NCBI RefSeq assembly: GCF_002149035.1
Contig: NZ_NGFP01000035.1
Span: 1-49,280 of the forward strand
Length of the DNA stretch: 49,280 bases
Origin: Streptosporangium minutum
Lineage (GTDB): Bacteria > Actinomycetota > Actinomycetes > Streptosporangiales > Streptosporangiaceae
Direction: 5' to 3'
Below the pieces are notes generated by a model that saw only the letters and a program-made list of their open reading frames with translations, ran no database searches and had not been told where the DNA came from. The stretch's first letter is position 1. Each line of letters starts with the position of its first letter. Both the position numbers and the translations under genes were made by a program. This document shows positions 17,824-36,047 of this stretch, one piece after another.

Positions 17824-17825
17824 GG

Positions 17826-19939: not shown

Positions 19940-22900
19940 TCAGCTCCCGAAGACGTGGTCGACGACGCGGGCGGCGGCCCTCCCGTCGTCCAGATGGCAG
20001 AAACGTTCCCTGAAGCCGCTGTATGCGGAGGCGTAGGCCGGGACGATGCCGTCGAGACCGGCCAGCGCGTCGATCACCTCGTCGGAGGTCGTCAGCAGGG
20101 GTCCCGGAGCGTGCCCGGCCGGATCGAGGTAGAAGCCGCGCACCCGGTCGCGGTAGTGCTCCAGATCGTAGGTAAAGAAGATCATCGGGCGGCCGGTGCC
20201 GGCATAGTCGAACATGAGCGACGAGTAGTCGGTGACGAGGACGTCGGCGACGAGCAGCAGGTCCGTGACGTCCGGATACCCGGTGACGTCGACGACCCCC
20301 CGGACCCGGCAGGCGGGCTTCGGCGCCTCGGACGTGTGCGGATGGCCCCGCAGGAGGAAGACGTGGTCGTCGCCGAGCGCCTGGAGCGCCCGGTCGAAGT
20401 CCAGCCGGATGTCCAGGTGGTACCTGCCTCCCGGAAGGACCTGGTCGTCCCGCCAGGTCGGCGCGTACAGCACCACCCGCCTGTCCGGGGAGAGTCCCAG
20501 GGCAGCTCGCACCCGCTCGGCCTCCTGCCGGCTCCCGGGCCGGTGCAGCAGGTCGTTCCGGGGACGTCCGGCCTCCAGGACGGGCCCGTTGTACCGGAAC
20601 GCGCCCGGCAGGATCGAGGTGCCGAAGGAGCTGGGCGAGACCAGCAGATCCCACCTCGCCACCTCCCGCGCGAGCCGCCGCCGGTGGTCGGCTCCGCTGC
20701 CGAAACGGCCGTCGGCGATGTCGTGGCCGATCCGCTTGAGCGGGGTCCCCTGTCCCGTCTGCACGTAGAGCTGGCCCTCACGCCCGGTGAACCAGCCCGG
20801 CGCTCTCTCGTTGGAGAAGACGTGGCCGGCGCGGGCCAGCGCCTCGTAGTGGTCCCGGCTGTCGCGCAGCACGACCCGCGCGTCCCCGGGAGGCCGCAGC
20901 CGGCCGTCGGCGGAGACCCACACGCACTCCCGGCCGTCACCCCTGCGCCGCAGCTCCTCGTATATCGCCCGGGGGCCGTCGGAGTAGCGCCGTCCCTGCC
21001 AGGAATCGAACACCACGAGCTCCCGGAGCGGTTCCTCCATGAAGGCCGGGTAGTCCCGCTCCATGAGACGCCGCTGGGCGTGGGCCCCCCGGTCGGCGCC
21101 GAGCGCCGGCTGGACGTCGATGGCGACGCCGTTCGAGCGGTGGGCCCGCACCCGGAACGTCTGCATCCCGGCCGTCTGCACGGGGGGCGGATCGGCGAGC
21201 AGGCTCCTGGCCGCCCTGACGGGAGACAGGTCCGCCCCGGACTCGACCAGGACCTCCCACCGGCCGCCGGCGAGCGGCACGTGCTCGCCGTACAGCTCGA
21301 ACCGGGTCAGTGGGAGCACGCAGGAGAACCGCTCCCCCTCCTGCTCCAGCGGCACGTGATGGACCTCGCCGCCGCCCGCCTTCCGCAGGACGAGCCGGGC
21401 CTGCGGGCCCGTCGCCCCGGCGCGCCGTCCCGCCAGGTGCAGGCTGCCGCCCACCCCCTGCCAGACGTCGGTCACCGTCGGCCGGACGGGGCGGACCACC
21501 GCGCCGAGAGGGCCGAGCCTGGTCGCGACCACACCGACCTCCCGGTCCTCCACGGTCACGTACTCCTCGACAGCCGCGAGGCCGGCCGTCAGCCTGCGGA
21601 GCTTGCCGCCGCCCACGACGACGAACAGGTCCCACCTGGGATCGGGGTCGATCTGCGGGCCGGTCGTGTCGCCGGTGGTGGCGCCGGCCGGCAGGTCGGC
21701 CGGGAGCAGTCCCGCGACGGGGAGGCGGGCGCTGAACCCGACCCGGCCGCCGCCGAGGGGCACGCAGGACGCGGGGAAGCTCAGTTCCCTGCCGCCCCGG
21801 CGCAGCCGGGCCAGCAGCGTCCCGCTCACGTCGGCCTGGTCGTCGGAGGCCGTCCAGCCCGACACCTCGATCATGTCCTCCCCGGCCGGCCGGGGCTCCG
21901 CCACGGTGTGGACCCGCTGGACCTTGAACAGGACCTCGTCGTCGGCGTTCACCTCCACGTACAGGCTGATCTGCGGGGTGACCGGGATGCCTGGGAGGCG
22001 GCGGACGTCACTGCCGGTGGTGGCGGTCAGCGGGCCGGACCGCCGCACGTCCTGCGCGACGACCTCGACCTCCAGCCGCCACCTGGCCTTCCGGCCGGCC
22101 CCGGCCAGCACGGCGAGATCGATGTCGACCTCGAAGCCCGACCAGTCGTAGCAGGTCGTGTCGCGGCCGGAGGCGGCGGTCACGTCCGGGCGGAGCAGCC
22201 GCCGGACCGGCAGCTCGACCACGCGCTGGGTCCGGGTGTTGCGCAGCGTCACCGTGATCTCCGACGAGTCCTCCGCCGGCAGGCCGATGCCCTTGATGTG
22301 GGCGCGACCGGTCACGCGGAGGCGGTCGCCGTCCTCCCAGTCGAGCTGGTCGACCCGGCAGACCAGGGTGAAGTCGCCGTCGCCCGCGCGGAAGACCTTC
22401 CGGGGCAGCACGCCCCCGTGCATCATCGGGTGGTCGGCGTACCAGCCGAACACCCGGCGCGTCAGACCGTGGAAGGCGCCCTCCCGCCGGTCGGCCAGCA
22501 CCTCGATGAAGTCGTCCGCCTGCCGACGCCTCAGCAGCTCGAACACCAGGCGCTGCTCCCAGGGGAGTCCGGACAGGATGTCGGGGTCCATGCGCTCGAC
22601 GAGCGAGCCGGCGTTGTCCACCAGGCGCCCCCGGTAGTCCTCGCCGGCGTCCAGCGCCGCGTTGACGTAGAGGGTGAGGTCGCTGCGGAGGACGAGTTCG
22701 TCGAACTGGCGCTGGAGCGCGGGAGACGCGTGAGCGGCCAGGAAGTCCCGGACCCGCGTGATCGACGCGATCCGGTCCTCCAGGTTGCCGGGCTCGGTCC
22801 GGCGCTGCGTGATCGACGGGTCCCCCGGCTCCCGCTGCCGCCAGTAATAGACCACGTCGCTGAGTACGTCGACCGAGCGCGCCAGCACATGGGCCGGGAT

Positions 22901-23458
22901 GGTGACGGGCGCGTCCTCGTAAAGCCCCCCGGGAAAGCTGAGACCGTGCTCCCGGTAGAAATCATGGCGGAATACCTTGTTCCATGCCGTGCGGTCCATG
23001 AGCAGTTCGGGACGCGCGTTCACGTGGGTCCGCTGGACGGTCTCCCTGAAAGGCCGGGAGTGCAGGCCGGACCGCCAGGTCTCGGTCGAGTTGAGGTAGA
23101 GGACGTTACCGCACGCGAAATCGGAGCCCGATCCGGAGAGCGAGGAGACCAGCAGTTCATAGGCGTCGGCGGGCAGCACGTCGTCGCTGTCCATGAAGCA
23201 CAGGTACTGGCCGGTCGCGTGGAGCGCACCGGCGTTCCTGGCCGCCCCCAGCCCGGCGTTCTCCTGGTGGACCACCCGGAAGCGGCTGTCCCTTCCGGCG
23301 AACTCCTTGGCGATGACAGCGCTGCCGTCGAGCGATCCGTCATCCACGCAGATGACCTCCAGATCGCGGAGCGTCTGCCTGGCGATCGACGCCAGGCAGC
23401 ACTCGAAATAAGGTTCCACGTTGAAGAAAGGGACGATAACGCTCAGCAGCGGCGACAA
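19940..23458 (-). CDS. Bifunctional GT2 glycosyltransferase / TagF-type polymerase with altered catalytic motif
   Basis: About 1172 residues. Residues ~1-220 are a GT-A family-2 domain (LSVIVPFFNVEPYFECCLAS, VDDGSLDGS, FMDSDDVLP). A long beta-rich middle of ~550 residues may hold glycan-binding modules. The C-terminal ~380 residues form a CDP-glycerol glycerophosphotransferase-like GT-B domain (YAPTWRDDQV, LLRGHPHT, DYSSLMFDYAGTGRPMIFF). Where the family normally reads TWHGTPLK it reads TGQGTPLK, so the expected catalytic His is Gln903. The start chosen is TTG, because GGAGG at 23467-23471 is spaced 8 bases from it and the protein then begins like its paralogue at 24922; ATG 23476 and GTG 23509 are alternatives. 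It is preceded by a repeat array and a terminator, so it probably has its own promoter. Confidence 0.85.
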   Translation of the reverse strand: MSPLLSVIVPFFNVEPYFECCLASIARQTLRDLEVICVDDGSLDGSAVIAKEFAGRDSRFRVVHQENAGLGAARNAGALHATGQYLCFMDSDDVLPADAYELLVSSLSGSGSDFACGNVLYLNSTETWRSGLHSRPFRETVQRTHVNARPELLMDRTAWNKVFRHDFYREHGLSFPGGLYEDAPVTIPAHVLARSVDVLSDVVYYWRQREPGDPSITQRRTEPGNLEDRIASITRVRDFLAAHASPALQRQFDELVLRSDLTLYVNAALDAGEDYRGRLVDNAGSLVERMDPDILSGLPWEQRLVFELLRRRQADDFIEVLADRREGAFHGLTRRVFGWYADHPMMHGGVLPRKVFRAGDGDFTLVCRVDQLDWEDGDRLRVTGRAHIKGIGLPAEDSSEITVTLRNTRTQRVVELPVRRLLRPDVTAASGRDTTCYDWSGFEVDIDLAVLAGAGRKARWRLEVEVVAQDVRRSGPLTATTGSDVRRLPGIPVTPQISLYVEVNADDEVLFKVQRVHTVAEPRPAGEDMIEVSGWTASDDQADVSGTLLARLRRGGRELSFPASCVPLGGGRVGFSARLPVAGLLPADLPAGATTGDTTGPQIDPDPRWDLFVVVGGGKLRRLTAGLAAVEEYVTVEDREVGVVATRLGPLGAVVRPVRPTVTDVWQGVGGSLHLAGRRAGATGPQARLVLRKAGGGEVHHVPLEQEGERFSCVLPLTRFELYGEHVPLAGGRWEVLVESGADLSPVRAARSLLADPPPVQTAGMQTFRVRAHRSNGVAIDVQPALGADRGAHAQRRLMERDYPAFMEEPLRELVVFDSWQGRRYSDGPRAIYEELRRRGDGRECVWVSADGRLRPPGDARVVLRDSRDHYEALARAGHVFSNERAPGWFTGREGQLYVQTGQGTPLKRIGHDIADGRFGSGADHRRRLAREVARWDLLVSPSSFGTSILPGAFRYNGPVLEAGRPRNDLLHRPGSRQEAERVRAALGLSPDRRVVLYAPTWRDDQVLPGGRYHLDIRLDFDRALQALGDDHVFLLRGHPHTSEAPKPACRVRGVVDVTGYPDVTDLLLVADVLVTDYSSLMFDYAGTGRPMIFFTYDLEHYRDRVRGFYLDPAGHAPGPLLTTSDEVIDALAGLDGIVPAYASAYSGFRERFCHLDDGRAAARVVDHVFGS

Positions 23459-23466
23459 AATGCCAG

Positions 23467-23471
23467 CCTCC
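23467..23471 (-). promoter_or_regulatory. Ribosome binding site deciding a TTG start
   Basis: GGAGG on the minus strand, 8 bases before TTG at 23458. Neither of the upstream in-frame starts (ATG 23476, GTG 23509) has a comparable site. Confidence 0.55.
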
Positions 23472-23689
23472 AACATCGTCGAAATCCGGAATGACCGAAG
23501 TGACCTCACGAAGGGGTCCGGAGCGGTTCCGGAGACGCTCCATCTCGATGAGATCGAGAATGAGGAGAACGTCCGATAGACGCACGGGCCATGCGTTTAA
23601 ATGACGCGGCTGTTGTCGAGCCTTGACCGCCTCGGACAGCCCGGCGGCTTGTCCGCGGGCACGGACCGCCCACGGTCGCCGTGACGCGC

Positions 23690-23774: not shown

Positions 23775-23900
23775 GGCTGAGGGCCGGATCCCGGCTGAGG
23801 GTCAGATCGCGGCTGAGGGCCGGATCCTGGTCAGGGGTCAGGTTCCGGCAGAGGGTCAGATCCCGGTTGGGGGTCAGGTTCCGGCTGAGGGTCAGATCAG
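23775..23900. repeat. Seven exact-length 18-bp tandem repeats at the pseI 3' end
   Basis: Seven contiguous 18-base units start at 23775, 23793, 23811, 23829, 23847, 23865 and 23883 with the consensus GGCTGAGGGTCAGATCCC and one to several substitutions each. The last unit contains the pseI stop codon (23892-23894), so the array begins inside the gene and extends beyond it. One frame on the plus strand reads as a six-residue repeat (AEGQIP-like) but has no start signal or support as a gene. There are no spacers, so it is not a CRISPR array. Confidence 0.9.
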
Positions 23901-24938
23901 GTCCCAGGTGAGCGGAGTGCCCCGGGGGGTGTCACGGTGAAAGGTCCGGCCGGTGACCGTCGTGATCGCGTCCGGCGGGAGCCCCCCGGCGGGGCGGATC
24001 GAGCGGACGTTGCTCTCCGACACCGCGTCACCGGCACGGACGTCGGCCACGACGTACAGGGACCGGCGGAAGCGCATCCCCTCGTCCTCCGCGGAGACGG
24101 GGCGGACCACGGCGCTGCCGAGCGCCTGCCACGCGCGGCCGCTCTCGACGACGAGCGCCGACAGCTCGTCCGGCTCCAGCGAGAACGCCGCGTCGACGCC
24201 CCCGCCCGCCCTGTCGAGGGTCACGTGCTTCTCGATCACGCATGCGCCGAGCGCCACCGCGGCCACCGCGGCGCCGATGCCCGGGGTGTGGTCCGACAGC
24301 CCGACCGGCAGCCCGAACGCCTCCGCCAGCACGGCAAGCCTGCGCAGGTTGCTGTCGGAGACCGCCGCGGGATAGGCCGCCGTGCAGCCCAGCAGGACCA
24401 GGTGCTCGCAGCCGGCCCCCCTGGCCGCCTGAACCGCGGCGTCCATCTCCCCCAGGCTCGCCATCCCGGTCGAGATGATCAGCGGTCTGCCCGTCCGCGC
24501 GACGCGGCGGATCAGCGGCAGGTCCACGATCTCCGACGACGCGATCTTGTAGGCGGGCGCCCCCAGGCTCTCCAGCAGGTCCACGGCCGTCGGGTCGAAG
24601 GGGCTGGAGAAGACGGTCAGCCCCGCCGACCGGGCCCGTTCGAAGATCGGCTCGTGCCACTCCCAGGGCGTGTGCGCGCGTTCGTAGAGGTCGTAGAGAC
24701 GCTGACCGCCCCACAGATCGTGCCCTTCGGACAGCCGGAACGACGGCCCGTCCGCATCGATGGTGATCGTGTCCGCGCGGTAGGTCTGGAGTTTGAGCGC
24801 GTGCGCCCCCGACGCCGCCACCGCATCGACGATCTTCATCGCCCTGCCGAGGTCCCCGTCGTGGTTACCGGACATCTCCGCGATGACGTACGGCGGGGCA
24901 TCGGCGCCGACGGGCCGCCCATTAATGATCATCTTCAC
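23892..24938 (-). CDS. pseI: Pseudaminic acid synthase (PseI-type NeuB family)
   Basis: A 348-residue enzyme that condenses the 6-deoxy-AltdiNAc sugar released by PseG with phosphoenolpyruvate to give pseudaminic acid. The N-terminal NeuB TIM barrel shows YVIAEMSGNHDGDL, ALKLQTYRADT, KIASSEIVDLPLIR and IEKHVTLDR. The segment HDLWGGQRLYDLYERAHTPW is the PseI-type signature that separates it from NeuB and LegI. A C-terminal SAF (antifreeze-like) domain (RRSLYVVADVRAGDAVSESN to TPLTWDLI) is complete. Its start overlaps the upstream GT2 gene by 17 bases, implying coupling; an ATG two codons later is possible. Other pseudaminic acid genes lie at 29.7-34.5 kb. Confidence 0.92.
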   Translation of the reverse strand: MKMIINGRPVGADAPPYVIAEMSGNHDGDLGRAMKIVDAVAASGAHALKLQTYRADTITIDADGPSFRLSEGHDLWGGQRLYDLYERAHTPWEWHEPIFERARSAGLTVFSSPFDPTAVDLLESLGAPAYKIASSEIVDLPLIRRVARTGRPLIISTGMASLGEMDAAVQAARGAGCEHLVLLGCTAAYPAAVSDSNLRRLAVLAEAFGLPVGLSDHTPGIGAAVAAVALGACVIEKHVTLDRAGGGVDAAFSLEPDELSALVVESGRAWQALGSAVVRPVSAEDEGMRFRRSLYVVADVRAGDAVSESNVRSIRPAGGLPPDAITTVTGRTFHRDTPRGTPLTWDLI

Positions 24939-26772
24939 TCCGTTGGACTCTCAGCGCCATGTTTCCGCGCGATGTGCGCGCCATCTGCGTCTCCCACCCG
25001 TCCAGCTCCCACCTGGGGAGCTCGTGCAGGGCCACGGGCATCCGCAGCGGCCTGCCGTCGGCCATCCCGGACAGGTACATGTTCCAGACGGCCGTCTCCC
25101 CCTCGGCCCGCAGGTCCTCGACGGGCACGTCCACGACGAACTCCCGCCGGCCGTCCCGCGCCGGAGCGGTCGTGACGGGGTAGGACCGCTCGGGACCGTC
25201 CGGGACGCCCATCACCAGGGTGAGGCCCGCGGCGCTCTCCTGCTCGGCGTGCCATCCGAGGATCCGCAGCCGGCCCTCGGACGCCTCGCACCCGGTCACC
25301 GCCGCCCGCGGGCGCTTGACGGCGATGACGGCGAACCCCTTGTCGTCCACGAGCGGCTGGATCCACATCCCGTCATCCGTCTCACCGGGACCGAGCGCCG
25401 GGGTGCTCCCCCTCAGCCGCGCCTCCCGGACGATGCCGTCCACGGTGAGCCTGACCCACACCTCCCACTTGGCGGCCCGTCCGGGAAGCGTGCCGGGATC
25501 GCAGACGAAGCCGAACTCCAGGTCGGAGCGCTCCACGGGCAGCTCCAGCACCGTGCCGGTCGCGCGCTCGCGCAGCCACAGGCTGATCGCGCAGGACGGA
25601 GCCGTCCCGACCATGACGCCCGGCAGCCGTACCCTGCCCTCGCCGTGCAGCCGGCCCTCGCGCCACTCCCAGCCTTCCAGCCGGCCGGCCATCGTGAGCT
25701 CCCGCGAGACGTCGAAGACCCAGCGGGGGATCCCGTAGCCGCGCCGGAAGGGATAGTCGGCATACCACTTGCGCCGCGACAGCAGGCCCCGCCGCAGGCG
25801 GGCCTCGTCCATGCTCTCCCGCTCGAACCGGACCGCCTCCGCCAGCTCCGCGACCATGCGCCGGTGCATCAGCTGGAGCTGCAACCTGCGGATCGCGGGC
25901 AGCTCCAGATGCGACCTCCGGTTCACCGTGTCGAGGTAGGAGCAGGCGGCGTCCAGCAGGCGATCGGGCTCGACGCCCGCCGCCAGCGCCTCGACCGCCA
26001 CCCGCAGGTCGTTGTGGAGCGTGTCCCTCTCGTAGACGCGGCGCAGCCCGGGGGCGTGCTCCCCGAGGAACCTCGCGGTCTCCGCGACGGAGATCACGAG
26101 ATCGGTGACGTTCTCGGCGCGGAAGCGGCGCTCGGTGATGGACCCCTCACGCAGGCGCCAGACGTAGACGACCTCGGAGAGCACGTCCACGGCCCGCGCG
26201 CGCACATGGGCGGGGAGGGTCACAGGCATGTCCTCGTACAGCCGGGCGGGGAACTCCATGCCCAGGTCGTCCCAGAACGAGCGCCGGAAGACCTTGTTCC
26301 ACACCGACCGGTCGAACAGCAGGTGCACGTTCCGGGTGATGTGCGTGCCCACCTGGGTCTTCCTGAAGGCGTTGCGGTGCGCCCAGGACTGCACCAGCCC
26401 CTCGGAGGTGAGCCGCTGCACGTTGCCCGACGCGATGTCGGACCCGCTCCGCTCCAGGGAGTCCACCAGGAGCTCGTAGGCGCGCGGGGGGACGATGTCG
26501 TCGCTGTCGGCGAAGGCCAGGTAGCGTCCCGACGCGTGCATCACACCGGTGTTCCTCGCCGGGCCGAGGCCCTGGTTCTCCTGGACCACCACCCGGAAGC
26601 GCGGGTCTCGGGACGCGTACTCCTTGGCGATGACCGCACTCGCGTCCATCGATCCGTCATCCACGCAGATGACCTCAAGGTCGCCGAGCGTCTGGCCCTG
26701 GATCGAGGCCAGGCAGGCGTCGAAATACCGTTCGACGTTGTAGTACGGAACAACCACGCTGAGTCGTGGCAT
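24922..26772 (-). CDS. GT2 glycosyltransferase, paralogue lacking the TagF domain
   Basis: A 616-residue protein. Residues 1-220 are a GT-A family-2 domain (MPRLSVVVPYYNVERYFDAC, VDDGSMDAS, FADSDDIVP). The remaining ~390 residues include a helical part and a beta-sandwich-like region, with repeated arrangements such as GRLEGWEWREGRLHGEGRVR and RLRILGWHAEQ. It closely resembles the N-terminal and middle parts of the 19940-23458 protein (shared DLEVICVDDGS and SAVIAKE) but stops before any CDP-glycerol polymerase domain. ATG 26772 is chosen over GTG 26781 because GGGGGTG is well spaced before it. It overlaps pseI at its 3' end, suggesting it transfers a sugar in the Pse-polymer pathway. Confidence 0.87.
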   Translation of the reverse strand: MPRLSVVVPYYNVERYFDACLASIQGQTLGDLEVICVDDGSMDASAVIAKEYASRDPRFRVVVQENQGLGPARNTGVMHASGRYLAFADSDDIVPPRAYELLVDSLERSGSDIASGNVQRLTSEGLVQSWAHRNAFRKTQVGTHITRNVHLLFDRSVWNKVFRRSFWDDLGMEFPARLYEDMPVTLPAHVRARAVDVLSEVVYVWRLREGSITERRFRAENVTDLVISVAETARFLGEHAPGLRRVYERDTLHNDLRVAVEALAAGVEPDRLLDAACSYLDTVNRRSHLELPAIRRLQLQLMHRRMVAELAEAVRFERESMDEARLRRGLLSRRKWYADYPFRRGYGIPRWVFDVSRELTMAGRLEGWEWREGRLHGEGRVRLPGVMVGTAPSCAISLWLRERATGTVLELPVERSDLEFGFVCDPGTLPGRAAKWEVWVRLTVDGIVREARLRGSTPALGPGETDDGMWIQPLVDDKGFAVIAVKRPRAAVTGCEASEGRLRILGWHAEQESAAGLTLVMGVPDGPERSYPVTTAPARDGRREFVVDVPVEDLRAEGETAVWNMYLSGMADGRPLRMPVALHELPRWELDGWETQMARTSRGNMALRVQRSEDDH

Positions 26773-26797
26773 ACGGATCACCCCCAGAGATGTCGAG

Positions 26798-28831
26798 CTA
26801 ACGTGCGACGCTTCCGTTCGAGCCGGTCCCGAACATCCGCCGTACCGGCCGGAGAGCCGACGCCGGAGCCATGATCATGCGCCCCAGCCGGGAGCCCTCC
26901 GGGGGCCGGGGCTTCTCATCTCGCCGTTGTGCCTGCTTGGCGGCACGGACGGCCTTCGCCAGCTTGGCCTCGGAGGTCTCCAGATCGCGCTCAAGCATCG
27001 TGATCTTCTGCTGGGCCTCCTCCAGCCGCGCCCGGAGCCGCCCCCGGGCGGCGTACAGCTCCCGGTAGCTCTCCCGCCACTCCCCCGGCCCGCCCGCGCT
27101 CCCGTGCCGGGCCGGCCCGGCCCGGCCGGGCGCGTCCACGCGTGGACCGTCCTCATCCCACGCGTTTCCGGCCGACCCGTCCTCACCTGGCGCACCCCAG
27201 ACCCGCACGTCGCCGTACGGCGCCTTCCCATCCGGCCCGTTCCCGGCCTGCGGCTCGCCGTACGGCGCGTGCCCGGCTTGCGCGTTCCCGGCCTGCGCGT
27301 TCCCGGCCTGCGGCTCGCCGTACGGCGCGTGCCCTTCCGGCGCGTCCCCGCGCGGGCCGCCGTCGCCGGCCGCCCCGTCCCGGGCGCCGTCCTCCAGGAC
27401 GGCGTCCAGGTCGGCGCCGATCTCCGCGTCCAGCTCGGCGCCCCGCCGGACGGTCTGCCGGTCGGCCGTGCCGCCCGCCATCGCCAGCAGCGTCAGCGTC
27501 AGCCGGTCGGCCCCGACCTGCCAGGACCACGGATGCCACTGCCCCGAATCCAGCAGGCGCACGGCGAAGTGACGCAGGATCCGGGCCAGGGCCACGTCGA
27601 GGTCGAGCTCGCCGGGGAGCTGCCAGCTCGCGTCGAGCAACGCGAACCCGGTGCCGTCGAAGAGCACATTGTCGGCCGTGGCGAAGGCCGTCGACGCGGG
27701 CACCCGCCCGCCGGCGCCGTGCCCCTCCAGCCACCGCCGGAAGAGGACGAGGAGCTCACGGATCGCGACGACGTCGTTGCGCGCGCAGGCCGCCATGAGG
27801 ATCTCGGCCAGGAAACGGCCCTCGGGGACCGGCCCGTCGAGCAGCTCGGGCGTCCGTGTCACCCGTCCCGACACGCGCAGCGTCCGGTCCCCTCGCGCCC
27901 TGCGGGCCCACCCGCCCTGCGCCGCCGGAGCCAGCTCGCAGGAGAGCCGCCAGTAGGGAGCGGCGTCGGCGTCGGCGGTCAGCGCCACCGGCGAGGTCAC
28001 GGGGCGGCCGCCGGCGGCGTGCGCCATGACCACCCAGCGCGTCGCGATCCTGGCCCCGAGCCCGCCGGCTATCGCCATGCGCCCGAGATGCCGGGCGTCG
28101 TAGCCCGCCGCGGGCGTGCCGAAGACCCCGACGCAGGCGGCCACGGCGAGGGCCGTCGGCGCCGAGGCGGCTTCCAGGGCCAAGACGTCCAGCAGCAGGT
28201 GCGGCCCGGCCGCATGGCCGTACGCCGCGTAGCTCCTGCCCACCGTGAGGCCGGCGCCGTTCAGGAGGTCCGTGAGCCGCTCCAGGTTCACCGGCCGGGA
28301 CTGGTCCAGCTCCACGGCGGCCCAGTCGTCGTCCGGGCGCTGATGGACCTCCGAGGGATCTCCGGCGAACCGGTGGACGCCCAGTGGGTTCTCCACTCCC
28401 AGCACGAGCGTCCCGCCGGGGGCGAGCATCGCGGTGAGCCGTCCCAGCGACTCCGCCCAGGAGCCGGCCGCGTGGTCGGAGGAGGTGAGGCGCTCGACCC
28501 CGTCGAGAGCGATCACCACGTCGAACGCCTCGGGGAACGCCGCCTTCTCCAGGCTGCCGCAGTAGACCGTGGCCTCGTGGTGCTCCGCCAGGCGGCAGGC
28601 GTCGGAATGGGAGCGCAGCAGCACGCTCAGCTCGCACGCCCCGGCGGCCGCCGCGTCGAGGAGCTCGGCGGGGTGCGGCCCCGCCACCAGGACCCGGCCG
28701 CCGGTGAGAAGGGGGCGCAACAGCTCGCCGAGCACCCCGGCTCCGGGAGATCCACCCGGTCCGTCGTCGGACCACTCAAGCATCTCTCCCCCCAGGAGGT
28801 GTATTCGGGCCGCCGCGTCGTCACAGATCAT
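26798..28831 (-). CDS. Methyltransferase-fold protein with repeat linker and C-terminal coiled coil
   Basis: A 677-residue multidomain protein. The N-terminal ~230 residues fit a class-I SAM methyltransferase fold (LLTGGRVLVAGPHP as motif I, FDVVIALDGVERL as motif II, LAPGGTLVLGVENP as motif III). Residues ~230-470 are an Ala/Leu-rich domain I cannot name. Residues ~480-570 are a low-complexity linker with repeated APYGEPQAGN/AQAGN units. Residues ~580-640 are a charged coiled coil (RARLEEAQQKITMLERDLE), then a basic end. Its start overlaps the upstream gene's stop by 11 bases. Proteins joining a methyltransferase to a coiled coil can cap glycan chains or set their length, so a similar role is possible but unproven. 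The degree of SAM-motif conservation is modest. Confidence 0.6.
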   Translation of the reverse strand: MICDDAAARIHLLGGEMLEWSDDGPGGSPGAGVLGELLRPLLTGGRVLVAGPHPAELLDAAAAGACELSVLLRSHSDACRLAEHHEATVYCGSLEKAAFPEAFDVVIALDGVERLTSSDHAAGSWAESLGRLTAMLAPGGTLVLGVENPLGVHRFAGDPSEVHQRPDDDWAAVELDQSRPVNLERLTDLLNGAGLTVGRSYAAYGHAAGPHLLLDVLALEAASAPTALAVAACVGVFGTPAAGYDARHLGRMAIAGGLGARIATRWVVMAHAAGGRPVTSPVALTADADAAPYWRLSCELAPAAQGGWARRARGDRTLRVSGRVTRTPELLDGPVPEGRFLAEILMAACARNDVVAIRELLVLFRRWLEGHGAGGRVPASTAFATADNVLFDGTGFALLDASWQLPGELDLDVALARILRHFAVRLLDSGQWHPWSWQVGADRLTLTLLAMAGGTADRQTVRRGAELDAEIGADLDAVLEDGARDGAAGDGGPRGDAPEGHAPYGEPQAGNAQAGNAQAGHAPYGEPQAGNGPDGKAPYGDVRVWGAPGEDGSAGNAWDEDGPRVDAPGRAGPARHGSAGGPGEWRESYRELYAARGRLRARLEEAQQKITMLERDLETSEAKLAKAVRAAKQAQRRDEKPRPPEGSRLGRMIMAPASALRPVRRMFGTGSNGSVAR
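27230..27345. repeat. In-gene repeat encoding the APYGEPQAGN linker
   Basis: A ~30-base segment reading GGCCTGCGGCTCGCCGTACG on the plus strand occurs at about 27250 and 27310. Two shorter GCGTTCCCGGCCT-type units lie between the copies. Translated on the minus strand it gives alternating HAPYGEPQAGN and AQAGN peptides. The repeat keeps frame. Confidence 0.65.
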
Positions 28832-29654
28832 TGGTCTCCCCCGACCATCCGAAAACGGTTCTGATCTCCTCGGGGGACACCCGGTACCTGACCCCCAGCT
28901 CCTCTGCCGCGATCTGCCGCGCGGTGACGAGATCGACCTCCGCGCCGTGCAGCTCCGGCCACAGCCGCCGGACGCGGGCGACCCCGCCGTGCATCGGGTC
29001 CTCCTCCGCCAGGACCATGGGGTCGCCGTAGACGGCGGGTTCGCATCCGGCCGCGATGCCGTGGAAGACGGCGGTGCTCAACCGGTTGGACGCCACCCGC
29101 CGGTGGCGGCGGAGCTCGGCGAGCTGCCTGTGCGGGAAGAGCGGATCGGTCCCCTTCTTCATCCAGCCCCGGGCTCCGTGGCTGATCACCCGGAAGCCGG
29201 CGTCCTCGTAGACGCTCCGGATCCCGGGCTCGCCGAACTCCAGCCAGTAGAGGCAGACGGTGACCGGTCCCCGCTCGACCTCGCGGATCTCGTCGATCAG
29301 CCGCTGATGGTCGCCGTTCACGTGCTGGCGCTCCCAGCCGTGGAAGGGGTACCAGATCGTGCCCTCCCGCTCCGCCTCCGGCACGGCGGGGGGCTCCATC
29401 TGCGTCAGGTAGAGCCACGGGGCGCCGATCGGGTAGTAGTCGCGGCGCCCGCGCGCCCAGCCCCGGCGGCGCATCGTGTCCGTCCAGACGAACTTCGGCG
29501 TCGCCGGGACGTATTTCTCGCGGGGGCCGAACCCGTCCAGGGCGTTCCATCCGTGCTGGAGGTAGCCGTTGATACGCGGCGGCCTCCGCCGGTCCAGCCC
29601 GCAGTACCGGGCGAAGATGTGGGCATGCCCGTAGAAGTGATTCGTGTGGTGCAT
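28821..29654 (-). CDS. Unrecognised protein, possible GT-B glycosyltransferase
   Basis: A 277-residue protein I cannot assign to a named family. The N-terminus is rich in His and aromatic residues (MHHTNHFYGHAHIFARYCGL, INGYLQHGWN, YPIGAPWLYL). The C-terminal half has Rossmann-like features, with VTVCLYWLEF, then a segment RRVASNRLSTAVFHGIAAGC followed by EPAVYGDPM. This recalls the donor-site region of inverting GT-B enzymes, including sialyl-/polysialyl- and CDP-glycerol-type transferases. It sits directly after pseC (11-base gap) and overlaps the following gene. A role in transferring pseudaminic acid is attractive but rests on position and a weak fold resemblance. The ATG at 29654 follows a GGAGAAACG site; a longer reading from 29780 lies inside pseC. 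Confidence 0.5.
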   Translation of the reverse strand: MHHTNHFYGHAHIFARYCGLDRRRPPRINGYLQHGWNALDGFGPREKYVPATPKFVWTDTMRRRGWARGRRDYYPIGAPWLYLTQMEPPAVPEAEREGTIWYPFHGWERQHVNGDHQRLIDEIREVERGPVTVCLYWLEFGEPGIRSVYEDAGFRVISHGARGWMKKGTDPLFPHRQLAELRRHRRVASNRLSTAVFHGIAAGCEPAVYGDPMVLAEEDPMHGGVARVRRLWPELHGAEVDLVTARQIAAEELGVRYRVSPEEIRTVFGWSGETNDL

Positions 29655-29665
29655 CGTTTCTCCGC

Positions 29666-30790
29666 TCAGCCGAGAATGGCGTGGAGAGCTTCGATGACCC
29701 GGTCCTGGTCCGAGTCGGTGAGGTCGGGGAACAGTGGCAGCGACAGTTGCCGCGCGTAGAACTCCTCGGCCACGGGGCACATGCCGCGCCGGTAGCCCAT
29801 GTCCGCGAAGACGGGGTGCCGGTAGGCGGGCAGGTAGTTCACCTGGACCCCGATGCCCGCCTGTCGCATCCGCTCGTAGACCTCGCGCCGCCGCCCGTCG
29901 AGGACCCCCACGGCGTACAGGTGCCAGGCGGGGTCCACGTGGGGGCGCCGGGCGGGCAGCCGCAGGCCGGCCAGGCCGGAGAGGGCCTCGTTGTAGCGCG
30001 CGACGAGCCGGGCCCGGCGCGCCTTGAACTCGCCCAGCCGCCGCACCTGGCTGATGCCGAGGGCGCAGAGCACGTCGGGCAGGCGGTAGTTCAGTCCGAA
30101 CGTGTGGACCTCCTGGTGCCAGTCGCCCTCACCCGGCTCGCGCTGCTCCTCCGGGTCCCTGACCAGCCCGTGGTTCCTGAATCGCCGGGCACGCCGGAGA
30201 AGCTCCTCGTCGGCCGTGGCGACGGCGCCGCCCTCGGCCGTCGTGATCGTCTTGGTCGGGAAGAAGGAGAAGGTCGTCAGGTCAGCGAGCGCGCCGACCG
30301 GCCGGCCGTGATAGCGCGACCCGACGGAATGGGCCGCGTCGCCTACGACCACGGCCCCGGCGCGCGAGGCGATCTCGCGCAGCGCGTCGTACTCGGCCGG
30401 GTGGCCGGCGTAGTCGACGGCGGCGACGGCCCGCGTGCGCGGACCGGTCACCGCCTCCGCGGCCGCCGGGTCGAGATTGGCGGTGTCCTGCTCCACGTCG
30501 GCGAAGACGACGCGGGCGCCGAGCATCGCGGCCGTGGCCGCGGTGGCGACGAAGGTGATCGGCGAGGTGACCACCTCGTCCCCCGGGCCGATCCCGGCCG
30601 CCGCGTAGGCTGTGTGCAACGCCGCGGTGCCCGAGGTCACGGACACGCACGGCACCCCGCCGGTCCAGGCCGCGAGCTCCGCCTCGAACGCGCCGACGGC
30701 CGGGCCGGTGGTCAGCCAGTCTCCGGTCAGGACGCCCAGGACGCCTTCGATGTCGCGCTCGTCGATCGACTGCCTGCCGTACGGAAGCAT
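29666..30790 (-). CDS. pseC: PLP-dependent aminotransferase, PseC type
   Basis: A 374-residue DegT/DnrJ/EryC1/StrS aminotransferase. In the pathway it aminates C4 of UDP-2-acetamido-2,6-dideoxy-L-arabino-hexos-4-ulose to give UDP-4-amino-4,6-dideoxy-AltNAc. The opening LPYGRQSIDERDIEGVLGVL and GDWLTTGPAVGAFEAELAAW are typical of PseC. The PLP Schiff-base Lys is in SFFPTKTITTAEGG (~residue 183), with the VVGDAAHSVGS phosphate/ring-binding region before it. The ATG overlaps the pseB TGA by one base (TGATG), so the two are translationally coupled. The longer frame upstream of the ATG runs into pseB and is excluded. Confidence 0.93.
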   Translation of the reverse strand: MLPYGRQSIDERDIEGVLGVLTGDWLTTGPAVGAFEAELAAWTGGVPCVSVTSGTAALHTAYAAAGIGPGDEVVTSPITFVATAATAAMLGARVVFADVEQDTANLDPAAAEAVTGPRTRAVAAVDYAGHPAEYDALREIASRAGAVVVGDAAHSVGSRYHGRPVGALADLTTFSFFPTKTITTAEGGAVATADEELLRRARRFRNHGLVRDPEEQREPGEGDWHQEVHTFGLNYRLPDVLCALGISQVRRLGEFKARRARLVARYNEALSGLAGLRLPARRPHVDPAWHLYAVGVLDGRRREVYERMRQAGIGVQVNYLPAYRHPVFADMGYRRGMCPVAEEFYARQLSLPLFPDLTDSDQDRVIEALHAILG

Positions 30791-31773
30791 CAGACCCTCG
30801 CCGCGAGCAGCTCGCGGATGCCCTCGACCGACAGCCACTGGTCGTTGCCGTCGGAGCGGTAGGAGAACCCCTCGGGGACGTTCTGGCCGCCGGGCGGAGG
30901 GACGTAGCCCCAGGTCGCGATGGTGGGCTGGACCACGTAGCGGGTGGCGAGCCGGATCGTCCTGCGGCTGTCGTCGGCGGCGATCATCTCTTCGTGGAGC
31001 TTCTCCCCCGGGCGGATGCCGACCTCGTGCGTCGAGGCGCCCGGCGCGACGGCCTCGGCCAGGTCCATGATCCGCATGCTGGGGATGCGCGGGACGTAGA
31101 GCTCGCCGCCCTGCATCAGGTCGAAGGAGTCGACCACGAACCGGACGGCCTGGTCCAGGGTGATCCAGAAGCGGGTCATCCGCTTGTCGGTGATCGGCAG
31201 GCTCTTGTCCTCGGCCGCCAGTTTCTGGAAGTAGGGGATCACCGAGCCGCGGCTGCCCATCACGTTGCCGTACCTGACCACGGCGAACCGGGTCACATGG
31301 TGTGAAGCGTAGTGATTGGCCGACACCAGCAGTTTGTCCGCTACCAGCTTGGTCGCCCCATAAAGATTGATAGGGCTGGAGGCTTTGTCCGTGGAAAGCG
31401 CGATGACTTTCCGGACACCGCAGTCGATGGCCGCCTCGACGACATTCTGTGAACCGCTGACATTCGTCAGGACGTATTCGAACGGATTGTATTCGGCTGT
31501 GTCGACCTGCTTGAGCGCGGCCGCGTGCACCACGTGGTCGACGCCGTGCATGGCACGGGTCAGACGGCTACGATCGCGCACGTCGCCGATGAACCAGCGC
31601 AACCTGGAGTCGTCGGCGAACAGCTGCCTGACCTCGTACTGCTTGAGCTCGTCCCGCGAGAAGACGACGACCCGCCGCGGGTCGTGATGGTCGAGCACAT
31701 GCCGGATAAAAGCCTTTCCGAACGACCCCGTCCCCCCGGTGACAAGGATCGACGCCCCTTCAAGCTCCCCCAC
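30790..31773 (-). CDS. pseB: UDP-GlcNAc 4,6-dehydratase (inverting), PseB
   Basis: A 327-residue extended SDR that performs the first step of pseudaminic acid synthesis: C4 oxidation, C5-C6 dehydration and C5 epimerisation of UDP-GlcNAc. The NADP site is VTGGTGSFGKAF (residues 11-22). Catalytic motifs are STDKASSPINLYGATK, with the Asp-Lys pair and the YxxxK, and VVRYGNVMGSRGSVIPYF for substrate. Its length matches characterised PseB (~330). The GTG at 31773 follows GGGGGG closely; an ATG at 31815 lacks a ribosome site and adds an unconserved N-terminus. It is the first gene of the long leftward operon and is divergent from pseF. Confidence 0.94.
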   Translation of the reverse strand: MGELEGASILVTGGTGSFGKAFIRHVLDHHDPRRVVVFSRDELKQYEVRQLFADDSRLRWFIGDVRDRSRLTRAMHGVDHVVHAAALKQVDTAEYNPFEYVLTNVSGSQNVVEAAIDCGVRKVIALSTDKASSPINLYGATKLVADKLLVSANHYASHHVTRFAVVRYGNVMGSRGSVIPYFQKLAAEDKSLPITDKRMTRFWITLDQAVRFVVDSFDLMQGGELYVPRIPSMRIMDLAEAVAPGASTHEVGIRPGEKLHEEMIAADDSRRTIRLATRYVVQPTIATWGYVPPPGGQNVPEGFSYRSDGNDQWLSVEGIRELLAARV

Positions 31774-31876
31774 GTGAGCCCCCCATACAAGACTTTCGTA
31801 ACTTACAGTAGTCATTCAGTGACAAGCTCGTAGCTTAACGCAGGGTCATCGTCACTCAACCGAGTTAGGAAATGTT
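31774..31876. promoter_or_regulatory. Divergent promoter region between pseB and pseF
   Basis: This 103-base gap is the AT-richest spot in the glycopolymer locus and must drive both the pseB operon (leftward) and pseF-pseG (rightward). On the minus strand TTGAGT and TAAGCT are spaced by 16 bases, and TTGTCA lies before TACGAA. The symmetric GTCATTCAGTGAC (31812-31824) could be an operator. Assignments are by eye only. Confidence 0.4.
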
Positions 31877-32611
31877 TTGGCCGTTCACATCGCCGGAGTC
31901 ATTCAGGCCCGCATGGGCTCCACCCGCCTGCCGGGAAAGGTCCTGCGGACGCTGGGCGGGCGCACCGTCCTCGAACGGGTCGTGCGCGCCGTCCCGCGCG
32001 GCGTCCTCGACGACCTCGTGGTGGCCACCACCACCGAGCCCGCCGACGACGCCGTCGTCGCGGAGTGCGAGCGGCTCGGCGTCGCCTGGCACCGCGGCCC
32101 GGTGGACGACGTGCTGACCCGCTTCCTGGGCGTTCTCGACCGGCTGGAGTGCGACGCGGTCATGCGCCTCACCGCCGACTGCCCGCTGCTCGATCCGGAG
32201 ATCATCGCGATGGCGGCGGGCATGTGGCGGGCCGCCCCCGGGCTCGACTACCTGAGCACCAGCCCGCAGCCCAGGACCCTGCCCAGGGGGCTGGACGTCG
32301 AGATCATCTCCGCCGGGGCGCTCCGGAGCCTCGACGGTACGGCCACCGGCCACCACCGCACCCACGTGACGTCGTACGTCTACACGCACGCGGAGCGTTT
32401 CCGGATCATCGGTCTCACGTTCCCGCCGGGCGACGCCGATCTGCGCGTCACACTCGACACCGTGGAGGACTGGGAGCTGATCAGGGCCGTCGTCGACCAC
32501 TTCGGGGACGGCCCGGTGCCGCTGCGGACCCTGGTCGGCTGGCTGAGGGAACGGCCCGAGGTCGTGGCGCTCAACGCCGCGGTGGAGCAGAAGGCCCTGG
32601 AGCTGGCGTGA
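31877..32611 (+). CDS. pseF: SpsF-type cytidylyltransferase, probable CMP-pseudaminic acid synthetase (PseF)
   Basis: A 244-residue nucleotidyltransferase of the SpsF/CMP-KDO-synthetase-like GT-A group. The nucleotide-binding signature is VIQARMGSTRLPGKVLRTLG (residues 8-27). The metal/sugar site follows in AVMRLTADCPLLDPEII. Later motifs include TSPQPRTLPRGLDVEII and RVTLDTVEDWELIRAV. It probably activates pseudaminic acid as CMP-Pse for transfer. The class differs from the NeuA-like PseF of Campylobacter, so the substrate is assigned from context. TTG start with TTAGGA just upstream. Its stop overlaps the pseG GTG (GTGA). Confidence 0.83.
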   Translation: MAVHIAGVIQARMGSTRLPGKVLRTLGGRTVLERVVRAVPRGVLDDLVVATTTEPADDAVVAECERLGVAWHRGPVDDVLTRFLGVLDRLECDAVMRLTADCPLLDPEIIAMAAGMWRAAPGLDYLSTSPQPRTLPRGLDVEIISAGALRSLDGTATGHHRTHVTSYVYTHAERFRIIGLTFPPGDADLRVTLDTVEDWELIRAVVDHFGDGPVPLRTLVGWLRERPEVVALNAAVEQKALELA

Positions 32612-33807
32612 GACGCGTCGGCATCCGCTGCGACGCGGGCGTCGGCCGCGGCGTCGGCCACCTGATGCGCTGCCTGGCCCTGGCCGAGGAGCTGCGGGAA
32701 CGGCGGCTGGAGGTCGTCGTCCTCGGCGACATGGGCGGGCTGGAGTGGGCCGCGGAGCAGCTGGCCCGGCGCGGCCTGAGGCTGCTCCCCGGGCCGGGCG
32801 ACGCGGCGGCCATGGTCCGGGCCGCCCGCCGCCTCGCGCTCGACGCCGTGGTCGTCGACTCCTACGATCTCGACCCCCGCTGCCCGGGAGCGCTCCGCCG
32901 GGCCGGGATACGGGTGCTGGCCGTCGTCGACGACGACGACCGCGGCCAGGACGCCGACATCTATCTGGACCAGAACCTCGGCGCCGAGCGCCGCCCCGGC
33001 CGCACTCCCGCCGGATCGGTCCGGCTCGCCGGGGTGCGCTACGCCCTTCTCCGCGACGACGTACGGCGCCTGCGCCGACGGGGGCCGACGGAGCCCGGGC
33101 AACCGGACAGCGCGCTGACAGATCACCTGCGGCCGGATCGGCGACCGGTGAAGCCTCAGCCTCCGGACGGGGTGCTGCCGGCTCAGGGACCGGTGAAGCC
33201 TCAACAGCCGGACGGGCGACCGGTGGAGCCCCGGCAGCCGGACGGGGTGCTGCCGGCTCACCGGCAGCCGGGTCAGGGACCGGTGGAGCACGGACGGCCG
33301 CCTCGGGTGCTGTGCTTCTTCGGCGGCACCGACGCGGCCGGGGCGGCTCCCACCGTGGTGGGAGAGCTCATCGCGACGGGCGTGCCGTTCCTGGCGACGG
33401 CCGTCACCCCGCGAGAGCGGGCGCTGGACCATCTCCGACCGGCCGGCGGCCAGACGGTCCGCCGGATCCCCCCCACCGACGACCTTCCCCGGCTGATCGC
33501 GGCGGCGGACCTCGTCGTCACGGCGGCGGGGAGCAGCATGTGGGATCTCCTCTACCTGGGGAAGGCCGCCGCGCTCGTCTGGGTGGCGGCCAACCAGCGG
33601 CCGGGTTACGAGGAGGTGGTCTCGCGCGGGCTGGCCGCCGGGCTCGGCCACCTCGACGCCGTGGCCGGTACGGCCGGCCCCGCCCGCGCGTGCCTGCGGG
33701 ACCTGCTCACCTCCGCGCGGGCCCGCGAGGAGCTCGGCGCGCGGGGGCCCGCGCTGGTCGACGGCGAGGGCAGGACGAGAGTCGCCGACGCCCTGCTCTC
33801 GCCGTGA
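32608..33807 (+). CDS. pseG: UDP-sugar hydrolase PseG with a repeat-filled interdomain insertion
   Basis: A 399-residue GT-B-fold hydrolase that removes UDP from UDP-2,4-diacetamido-2,4,6-trideoxy-beta-L-altropyranose. Domain 1 (1-155) has GIRCDAGVGRGVGHLMRCLA, a PseG hallmark with the catalytic His in GHLMRC, and VVVDSYDLD. Domain 2 (232-399) has VLCFFGGTDAAG, AADLVVTAAGSSMWDLLYLG and WVAANQRPGYE. Between them is a ~75-residue Pro/Gln/Asp/Gly-rich insertion (158-232) built from repeated RPVKPQPPDG/VLPAQ units. Characterised PseG proteins are ~275-360 residues with a short linker. The GTG overlaps the pseF stop. The 3' end forms the first unit of a 35-bp repeat array. Confidence 0.9.
   Translation: MRRVGIRCDAGVGRGVGHLMRCLALAEELRERRLEVVVLGDMGGLEWAAEQLARRGLRLLPGPGDAAAMVRAARRLALDAVVVDSYDLDPRCPGALRRAGIRVLAVVDDDDRGQDADIYLDQNLGAERRPGRTPAGSVRLAGVRYALLRDDVRRLRRRGPTEPGQPDSALTDHLRPDRRPVKPQPPDGVLPAQGPVKPQQPDGRPVEPRQPDGVLPAHRQPGQGPVEHGRPPRVLCFFGGTDAAGAAPTVVGELIATGVPFLATAVTPRERALDHLRPAGGQTVRRIPPTDDLPRLIAAADLVVTAAGSSMWDLLYLGKAAALVWVAANQRPGYEEVVSRGLAAGLGHLDAVAGTAGPARACLRDLLTSARAREELGARGPALVDGEGRTRVADALLSP
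33115..33300 (+). repeat. In-frame repeat in the pseG interdomain linker
   Basis: Units containing CCGGTGAAGCCTCARC and GACGGGGTGCTGCCGGCTCA recur at irregular but frame-keeping distances. They encode the PVKPQ-PDG-VLPA pattern at pseG residues ~170-230. The insertion lies exactly between the two Rossmann domains, so it should not destroy either. Confidence 0.75.
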
Positions 33808-34018
33808 TCACCCCAGCCGCCGACGCCCTGCTCTCGCCGTGATCACCCCAGCCGCCGACGCCCTGCTCTCGCGGTGATCATCCCAGCCGCCGACGCCGGC
33901 TTCCCCCAGGGATCACCCCGGCCGCCGACGCCGGTTTCCCCCAGGGATCACCCCGGCCGCCGATGTCGCGTCCTCCCGTGATCCCCGATCGCCGATGCCC
34001 CACCCCAGGCCGTGGTCG
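33784..34018. repeat. 35-bp tandem repeat array spanning the pseG stop codon
   Basis: Units begin at 33784, 33819, 33854, 33889, 33924 and 33959 with exactly 35-base spacing, and a degenerate seventh starts at 33991. The consensus is GCCGACGCCCTGCTCTCGCC plus GTGATCACCCCAGCC. The first unit is the last 24 coding bases of pseG including TGA; each copy carries a TGATC at the same place. The later copies change to GGCTTCCCCCAGGGATCACC. The array fills the whole gap between pseG and convergent pseH. No spacers are present. Confidence 0.9.
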
Positions 34019-34050
34019 CCCGGGGTGGCGGCACGGCGGCCGTCCCGTGA

Positions 34051-34539
34051 TCATCTCGTCAGCTCCATGACGACGACGGGCTCCCGGACACCGCCCACCT
34101 CGCGCGTGTAGGTGCCCACCTCGGCGAACCCGTGGCGGCGGTGCAGGGTCCTGACCGCCTCGTTACGGGCCAGCACCTCGCCGCGCAGCGTGCCGATCCC
34201 CAGCTCGGTGAAGGCGTACGCGATGGCCTCGGCCTCGATCCGCATCCAGGCGGCCAGCAGCTCGCCCCGCTCGCCGAGCCCGTCGACGTCGAGGTAGAAA
34301 CCCCATCCGGCCCGCCGCGCGCGGGCGTCGTGGTCGAAGAGGTTCACCACTCCGCTCGGCACGCCGCCGTGCTCGTAGACGAGGATCCGGCGCGTGCCGT
34401 CCGCCACCGTCGCCCGCCACCACCTGCGGTGTTCGACCTCGCCGATCTCGTGGTCGGTGAAGCTGACCCCCCGCACGCGCGGGTGGTTGCGCCACCGCCG
34501 GATCATCTCGCACTCGCGCTCGACCGCTCCCCTGAGCAC
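34051..34539 (-). CDS. pseH: GNAT N-acyltransferase, PseH type
   Basis: A 162-residue GCN5-related acyltransferase. In pseudaminic acid synthesis it N-acylates the C4 amine made by PseC. The N-terminal ECEMIRRWRNHPRVRGVSF and EHRRWW are typical of the PseH/RimJ-like subgroup. The cofactor-binding core is about residues 85-125 (GERGELLAAWMRIEAEAIAY), followed by LRGEVLARNEAVRTLHRRHG and a final beta strand. The GTG start lies 5 bases after the FkbH-like gene's stop, so it is coupled to it. Most PseH enzymes use acetyl-CoA; the ACP and FkbH genes in the same operon raise the option that this one takes an ACP-bound acyl group. Confidence 0.85.
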   Translation of the reverse strand: MLRGAVERECEMIRRWRNHPRVRGVSFTDHEIGEVEHRRWWRATVADGTRRILVYEHGGVPSGVVNLFDHDARARRAGWGFYLDVDGLGERGELLAAWMRIEAEAIAYAFTELGIGTLRGEVLARNEAVRTLHRRHGFAEVGTYTREVGGVREPVVVMELTR

Positions 34540-34544
34540 GGCGG

Positions 34545-35594
34545 TCAGCCGGTCCGTACCGTGAGGTACGCGGGAGGGTCCTGGATGCGGTCGAGGTCGG
34601 ACTCCAGGATCCGGAGCTCGCCCCGGGTCTCCACCTCCTGGAAACCCGCGAAGCGGTAGGTCACGAACATCACCCGGTTGCGGTCGTTGGGCAGGAACTC
34701 CGCCCGGAGCCGCACTCCGGCGTCCCGCGCCAGGCGCATGACGTGGTTCAGCAGGACCGTCCCGACGCCCCGGGACATCACCCGGCAGGACATCAGCAGG
34801 AGCTTGAGCGTCCAGATCTCGGCTCCGCGCTCGACGAGAGCGAGGCCGATCCTCCCGTAGGAGCCGAACCGGTCCTCAAGGCCGGCCACCAGCAGCAGGT
34901 GGTCGGGGGACCGCGTGAACGCGCGCAGCTCCTCGTAGGAGTAGGTGACGCCGGTGGAGTTGAGCTGGTTGGTCCGGACGCTGAGCTCCTCGGCACGCCG
35001 GAGGTCGGCCTCCGCCGCCGCGGAGATCGAGAAGGTCATGTCGAGGGTGGCCAGGAAGTCGTCGCTCGTCCCGCCGAACTCGCGCTCGGCGGCGTCCCTG
35101 AGCTCGGACCCCATGTACATGGAGCGCCGGTTGCGGGAGTCTTCGGTGACGAACCTCGGCATGAAGACCGGCATCTCCGGAATCCTCGCCACCTCGTCGG
35201 CGTCCAGGCAGAGCACCTGGGGATGGCTGAAGGCGACCTCCTCCCGCTCGAAGGGCTGGTCGTCGATGAGGGCCAGCGCGTCGATCCCGATGTTCAGGGA
35301 CTTCGCGATGGCCGCCACGGACTCGGACTTGGAGTTCCAGCCGATCTGCGGAGCGAGGAAGTAGTCGCGCAGGCCGAACCGCTCCAGCTGCTCGATGGCG
35401 GCCGGGCCGTGGTTCCTGCTGGCGATCGACTGCAGGATTCCCCGCTCGTCGAGCACCCTGACGACCTCCGCGACCCCGGGCCGGAGCGTGACCTCCCCGT
35501 CCTCCAGGAGGACGCCGTCCCACAGGGTGTTGTCCAGGTCCCAGACGACGCACTTGATCGGGCCGGTCCCCCGCCCCTCGACGCCCGTGGTCAT
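34545..35594 (-). CDS. FkbH-like HAD-IIIC family protein
   Basis: A 349-residue member of the FkbH family. The HAD phosphatase domain carries the nucleophile motif VVWDLDNTLWDG (Asp pair near residues 18-20) and LIDDQPFEREEV as the late acidic motif. The second half (from about 190) is the GNAT-like domain of FkbH proteins with LSVRTNQLNSTG and SCRVMSRGVGTVLLNHVM. Characterised relatives dephosphorylate 1,3-bisphosphoglycerate and load a glyceryl group onto an ACP. The start overlaps the ACP stop (ATGA). Here the acyl unit is more likely meant for a sugar than for a polyketide, since no PKS gene is present; that is inference. Confidence 0.9.
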   Translation of the reverse strand: MTTGVEGRGTGPIKCVVWDLDNTLWDGVLLEDGEVTLRPGVAEVVRVLDERGILQSIASRNHGPAAIEQLERFGLRDYFLAPQIGWNSKSESVAAIAKSLNIGIDALALIDDQPFEREEVAFSHPQVLCLDADEVARIPEMPVFMPRFVTEDSRNRRSMYMGSELRDAAEREFGGTSDDFLATLDMTFSISAAAEADLRRAEELSVRTNQLNSTGVTYSYEELRAFTRSPDHLLLVAGLEDRFGSYGRIGLALVERGAEIWTLKLLLMSCRVMSRGVGTVLLNHVMRLARDAGVRLRAEFLPNDRNRVMFVTYRFAGFQEVETRGELRILESDLDRIQDPPAYLTVRTG

Positions 35595-35878: not shown

Positions 35879-36047
35879 GGCAGGCAGCGGAGTAGCTCAC
35901 AGTATCGTCGCGACAGCGTAGTGTAGCGGCACGATGCGTGAGGGTCCGTACGGCCATGCGCCTGCCGGGCCGGCCCGCGGTCACCGGCCCGTCGGACGCG
36001 CTCGGCTCGCGGAGCGCGACCGTGACGAGGTCCTACGTGACGAGGTC

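Follow-up and report, generated by a model that had tools for sequence, protein, structure and literature searches.

Which sugar is made by a pseudaminic acid (Pse) locus whose acyltransferase gene adjoins a carrier-protein module? The question is raised by a locus of Streptosporangium minutum (GCF_002149035.1, genome of 9.58 Mb), contained in a stretch of 49,280 nucleotides of contig NZ_NGFP01000035.1 (positions 1-49,280, forward strand; the window). The PseBCHGIF pathway is known from Helicobacter and Campylobacter flagella, and some actinomycete walls contain teichulosonic acids, polymers with Kdn or Pse. All six Pse enzyme types had been predicted at 23892-34539, and family scans yielded candidate genes for all six steps, the one for PseF being named by its position. 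The gene string extends past 34539 to 35857, with genes for FkbH and an acyl carrier protein (ACP) preceding pseH. This ACP-FkbH module, which lies beyond the end of that interval and is absent from the original prediction, alters the predicted sugar. Judged by its gene content, the locus would make CMP-Pse, likely destined for a polymer of the cell wall; that one step is altered, by a PseH fed with glyceryl-ACP, has about even chances. The following genes are concerned:

23892-24938, minus strand: PseI, pseudaminic acid synthase (TIGR03586, 453.9 bits; cut-off 340.25)
29666-30790, minus strand: PseC aminotransferase (best family TIGR03588, 411.7 bits; cut-off 423.5, missed by 12)
30790-31815, minus strand: PseB, UDP-GlcNAc 4,6-dehydratase (TIGR03589, 492.8 bits; cut-off 407.75)
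31877-32611, plus strand: SpsF-type cytidylyltransferase, named PseF by position (PF02348 CTP_transf_3, E 2.9e-23)
32608-33807, plus strand: PseG, UDP-sugar hydrolase (TIGR03590, 114.9 bits in two stretches, E 5.1e-33; cut-off 153.55)
34051-34539, minus strand: PseH, GNAT N-acyltransferase (TIGR03585, 91.2 bits; cut-off 93.1, missed by 2)
34545-35594, minus strand: FkbH, 349 aa, HAD-IIIC type (TIGR01686, 270.9 bits; cut-off 146.65; scanned in the longer frame 34545-35984)
35591-35857, minus strand: acyl carrier protein, 88 aa (PF00550 PP-binding, E 3.8e-7, 30.7 bits; cut-off 20.8)

The ACP gene starts with GTG and encodes a DS(M) serine, which we take to be the carrier-protein motif. Its end overlaps the start of fkbH by ATGA, and a gap of 5 nt separates the end of fkbH from the start of pseH. 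FkbH enzymes load glycerate onto carrier proteins, and the 34545-35594 product is presumed to be a glyceryl-ACP loading enzyme. Residues D19, D21 and C270, presumably catalytic, are conserved in 97 of 97 aligned FkbHs; the alignment was made from 99 loci, two of which dropped out, and holds one duplicate pair (G135/L071). A second FkbH match was not found anywhere in the S. minutum genome. Two adjoining genes of the YbaB/EbfC family lie upstream of the ACP gene (36048-36819), and three of the four other genus members with the ACP-FkbH module have relatives of them at the same place.

The position of pseH was then compared among Pse loci. PseI scored over its cut-off in 48 of 297 genomes of the family, 6 of 16 of the genus and 13 of 396 of a phylum sample, the S. 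minutum genome being included in each count; the family is that of the genome collection and possibly wider than the NCBI Streptosporangiaceae. One of its genomes, G135, matches Spongiactinospora rosea, an NCBI member of Streptosporangiaceae, with full identity across 13.5 kb. In total 52 loci were read, namely the 48 of the family together with G038, G039, G040 and G046, while the 12 other PseI genomes of the phylum sample were left out. Some of the stretches end at contig ends (e.g. G040, G105 and G268). The pse genes are grouped again in the 51 other loci, some of them truncated by contig or fetch ends, and the grouping is thus more than chance. Both ACP and FkbH were found within the Pse locus in 6 of 52 cases: five of the six PseI-positive genomes of the genus, S. 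minutum included, and G074, which belongs to another genus. In all six, pseH stands beside ACP-FkbH and 8.6-34 kb away from pseI. Of the 46 loci without the module, 45 have pseH no more than 150 bp from pseI, the exception being G029. Measured by match ends, pseH and FkbH are 9 bp apart in the five genus loci and 358 bp apart in G074. There, pseH and the ACP gene are divergent neighbors and stand together with pseF, at least 33 kb from pseI, pseC, pseB and pseG. The pairing of pseH with ACP-FkbH gave p = 3.4e-7 in Fisher's exact test, which ignores the shared descent of the five genus cases. The sixth PseI-positive genome of the genus, G015, has one FkbH, 2.6 Mb from pseI. FkbH was sought in the 48 family genomes with PseI and in 16 others (the 12 phylum matches and four further genomes); two of these 16 have one, G520 at 190 kb from pseI and G046 on another contig. 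A Methyltransf_24 methyltransferase gene adjoins pseH in the G074 arrangement (L137:6564-7376); that it might O-methylate a glyceroyl group is a thought.

Type-B Pse loci of Streptosporangiaceae, such as that of Nonomuraea gerenzanensis (L199), share with the S. minutum locus the pse genes and relatives of the GT2-TagF, GT4, sulfotransferase and CDP-alcohol phosphatidyltransferase genes. The N. gerenzanensis locus differs in that pseH directly adjoins pseI, and no ACP or FkbH match is present in its 29 kb stretch.

FkbH-ACP modules belong to methoxymalonyl-ACP-type pathways of polyketide synthases (PKS) and nonribosomal peptide synthetases (NRPS). The module of the window resembles these in having FkbH with an ACP nearby. 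Among 99 FkbH loci compared, 46 encode an FkbH of at least 53% identity to that of the window, six of them in Pse loci and 40 elsewhere; the latter represent 39 distinct loci, G135 and L071 being the same. Within 4 kb of FkbH, an acyl-CoA dehydrogenase is encoded in 38 of these 39 loci (exception L081) and an FkbK-like dehydrogenase in 35. All five acyl-CoA dehydrogenase neighbors tested by Pfam were confirmed. In contrast, neither gene occurs within this distance in any of the six Pse loci, where the neighbor is a sugar N-acyltransferase. Since both oxidizing genes are missing from all six, glyceryl-ACP appears to be the end product of the module and PseH its likely user.

We infer the following route. 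PseB and PseC would provide a UDP-4-amino sugar. FkbH would load D-glycerate onto the ACP from activated phosphoglycerate, as is known for enzymes of this type, and the module would stop at glyceryl-ACP, its oxidizing partners (acyl-CoA dehydrogenase and FkbK-like dehydrogenase) being absent. The PseH-type GNAT would transfer the glyceryl group from the ACP to the 4-amino group of the sugar, and PseG, PseI and PseF would then convert the product to CMP-Pse carrying a 5-N-acetyl and a 7-N-glyceroyl group. Finally, glycosyltransferases of the locus would place this sugar into the polymer. Such a branch of nonulosonic acid synthesis fed by a carrier protein, in which PseH uses glyceryl-ACP and 7-N-glyceroyl-Pse enters an actinomycete wall polymer, is put forward tentatively, at slightly less than even chances. 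Acyl variation of Pse is known chemically, and we know of no acyl-carrier-protein route to such variants. If correct, the route would join a polyketide-type loading enzyme to the synthesis of a cell-surface sugar and turn glycerate from central metabolism into a wall decoration. An ACP-FkbH pair beside pseH, with no acyl-CoA dehydrogenase, would then be a genome signature for glyceroylated Pse.

A different, less probable explanation that nevertheless deserves serious weight is that PseH keeps acetyl-CoA as donor and yields 5,7-di-N-acetyl-Pse, glyceryl-ACP serving another enzyme, which could for example attach an O-glyceroyl ester to the sugar or the polymer. PseH does match the ordinary family TIGR03585, and all four of its genus orthologues pass the cut-off (94.0-99.3 bits). 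A PseH of the same clade also occurs without a nearby FkbH, in G029. However, no other acyltransferase family was found among the open reading frames scanned between 12702 and 35857, two family-less proteins being encoded there. Moreover, an acetyl-CoA-dependent PseH would leave unexplained why pseH is the neighbor of ACP-FkbH in both arrangements.

Several observations weigh against the use of glyceryl-ACP by PseH. The six ACP-FkbH loci represent two separate arrangements rather than six independent cases, because those of the genus have a common descent. A strict pairing of PseH with FkbH is contradicted mainly by G029. Its PseH belongs to the genus clade (73% identity) and is encoded away from pseI, and no ACP or FkbH was found within the 39 kb read. 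This genome has a single FkbH; 520 kb separate it from pseI, and its ACP is encoded at a distance of 1.2 kb. In the PseH tree the genus PseHs join that of G029 with a support of 0.988, the G074 PseH being placed elsewhere. The PseI, PseB and PseC of G029, in contrast, join those of G015 (support 0.999). G029 would therefore have acquired or retained its PseH with no ACP-FkbH in the vicinity. Further, the FkbH-paired PseHs score 91.2-99.3 bits with TIGR03585, compared to 73.4, 80.6 and 90.0 for three type-B PseHs, and these higher scores as an ordinary PseH do not favor a changed acyl donor. The G074 FkbH groups with the genus FkbHs with a support of only 0.672. A sequence signature of the FkbH-paired PseHs was also sought and discarded: among 52 sequences only M99 is private to the six, and nothing ties it to the choice of acyl group.

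An improbable third possibility is that FkbH and ACP load another acyl group, or feed a separate small-molecule pathway, and stand next to pseH by chance. Related FkbHs outside Pse loci are indeed mostly found with acyl-CoA dehydrogenases. The closest FkbH among genome contigs has 63% identity among the matches listed, and the closest among plasmid records 65.5% (20 of 115 listed). Three plasmid records that were read (H1, H2 and H9; FkbH 64-66%) are all annotated with, consecutively and in this order, a 3-hydroxyacyl-CoA dehydrogenase, an ACP, an acyl-CoA dehydrogenase and an FkbH-type HAD-IIIC phosphatase, and in all three a gene of PKS or NRPS type is present in the same stretch. Of at least 80 FkbH loci from the contig scan, none (0/80) had a match to PseI, PseH, PseC, PseF or PseG, and one (L125) had a weak match to PseB (33%). 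On the other hand, no PKS or NRPS domain was found among the window open reading frames scanned, the genome offers no second FkbH, and ACP-FkbH adjoins pseH in two arrangements from different genera, in the genus in five of six members that carry Pse genes. A parallel in Sinorhizobium was considered: an FkbH-like protein of ~30% identity is encoded on an S. meliloti plasmid, in strain Rm41 35 kb from pseI. This case was not counted, as strain 1021, which is absent among the listed 40 of 99 pseI records, also has an FkbH-like protein.

A sugar of the legionaminic or neuraminic type, with misleading PseI and PseB assignments, is very improbable: although PseC, PseH and PseG stay below their cut-offs and PseF has no PseF-family match, PseI passes its own cut-off and misses that of the NeuB model (277.3 bits, cut-off 399.65), PseB is well over its cut-off, and among solved structures PseI is closest to 8h2c, 'Pseudaminic acid synthase' (E 1.5e-71), and PseB to 2gn4, a UDP-GlcNAc C6 dehydratase (E 1.7e-107), the latter presumably the inverting dehydratase FlaA1. 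These results give good support to Pse, as opposed to Neu, as the predicted sugar, the contrast having been drawn against NeuB alone. At the level of protein families, the pathway of the locus is confirmed as Pse, its SpsF-type PseF being assigned from position. This gene (31877-32611) was called PseF because it overlaps the start of pseG; NCBIfam gave no PseF-family match for it, and KdsB- and MobA-type matches only, below cut-off. The anticipated placement of each protein by profile searches was borne out for PseB and PseI, with sub-cut-off matches for PseC, PseH and PseG. For PseC the second-best NCBIfam family reaches 269.1 bits, and its nearest solved chains are ArnB-type aminotransferases. 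TIGR03585 is the sole NCBIfam match of PseH, and the best solved match is 4xpk (PseH, E 5.5e-5). No solved relative of PseG was found at E<=0.01.

Tandem repeats at 33128-33246 within pseG encode a repeat-containing linker, and the PseGs of 12 relatives range between 317 and 412 aa in length. About five tandem copies of 35 bp (33783-33963) occupy the 3' end of pseG and continue into the space that separates it from the convergent pseH. Elsewhere in the S. minutum genome, an open reading frame of 685 aa (L055:9532-11589; G000:C301) combines cytidylyltransferase, weak HAD (at cut-off) and NeuB domains, and may represent a CMP-Kdn pathway in a single protein. NeuB-type matches with comparable scores occur in 15 of 16 genus genomes; the fusion was checked in the S. 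minutum genome.

In comparison to the PseBCHGIF pathway, the locus has the same enzyme types for five steps, with PseB and PseI over curated cut-offs. It differs in its SpsF-type PseF, in the ACP-FkbH module beside pseH, and in the lack of a flagellin match. The prediction that no flagellar gene is present holds for the sole flagellar family sought, the flagellin N-domain, which had no match in the whole genome and was detected in 4 of 14 control genomes. Where, then, would the sugar go? The remaining genes of the locus are:

12702-15587, plus strand: GT2-TagF-type fusion (PF04464 E 2.2e-83, PF00535 E 1.8e-32)
15595-16683, plus strand: GT4 glycosyltransferase (PF00534 E 4.1e-29)
16780-17829, minus strand: sulfotransferase (PF13469 E 5.8e-45; scanned in the longer frame 16780-18219)
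17826-18836, minus strand: sulfotransferase (PF13469 E 3.6e-45)
18862-19749, minus strand: CDP-alcohol phosphatidyltransferase (PF01066 E 1.1e-14)
19940-23509, minus strand: GT2-TagF-type fusion (PF04464 E 7.3e-99, PF00535 E 1.6e-36)
24922-26781, minus strand: GT2 glycosyltransferase (PF00535 E 6.7e-36)
26798-28831, minus strand: 677 aa protein with a repeat linker (no Pfam match)
28821-29654, minus strand: family-less protein (no Pfam or NCBIfam match), present at 44 of 52 Pse loci

A wall-polymer setting, as originally proposed, is likely because two GT2-TagF fusions and a CDP-alcohol phosphatidyltransferase are encoded here, and both kinds of gene recur in the loci of the family (the 12702-type fusion in 44 of 48, the CDP-alcohol enzyme in 45 of 48). 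The fusions had been described as interleaved with the pse genes; both exist, and both lie outside 23892-34539. As to the other glycosyltransferases expected inside this interval, 24922-26781 is a GT2 enzyme with no Glyphos_transf (TagF) match at E<=1, and Pfam gave no match for 26798-28831. The sole genome match to the TagD family is far under its cut-off (39 vs 165.4 bits). Neither a polymerase nor a Pse transferase could be assigned at the locus, hence no teichulosonic acid assignment is made. The locus is like those of teichulosonic acids in its actinomycete host and in the TagF-type fusions around the sugar genes; it differs by the added acyl module and two sulfotransferases.

The 28821-29654 protein is a candidate Pse transferase from its co-occurrence with Pse loci; the eight loci without a match are all stretches of at most 25.6 kb. 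A 12-sequence profile of this protein found no sequence relative in the PDB at E<=1, and an identification by fold was abandoned, the single-sequence AlphaFold2 model (mean pLDDT 38.6) being too poor to use. A 9-sequence profile of the 677 aa protein gave a weak match to glycine N-methyltransferase (E 0.049), so that a methyltransferase-like part is weakly possible; repeats are found within its gene at 27210-27358. The tandem sulfotransferase genes (16780-18836) vary in copy number among Pse loci, 45 of 52 having a match to the 17826 gene, and given these two sulfotransferases it is possible that the polymer is sulfated.

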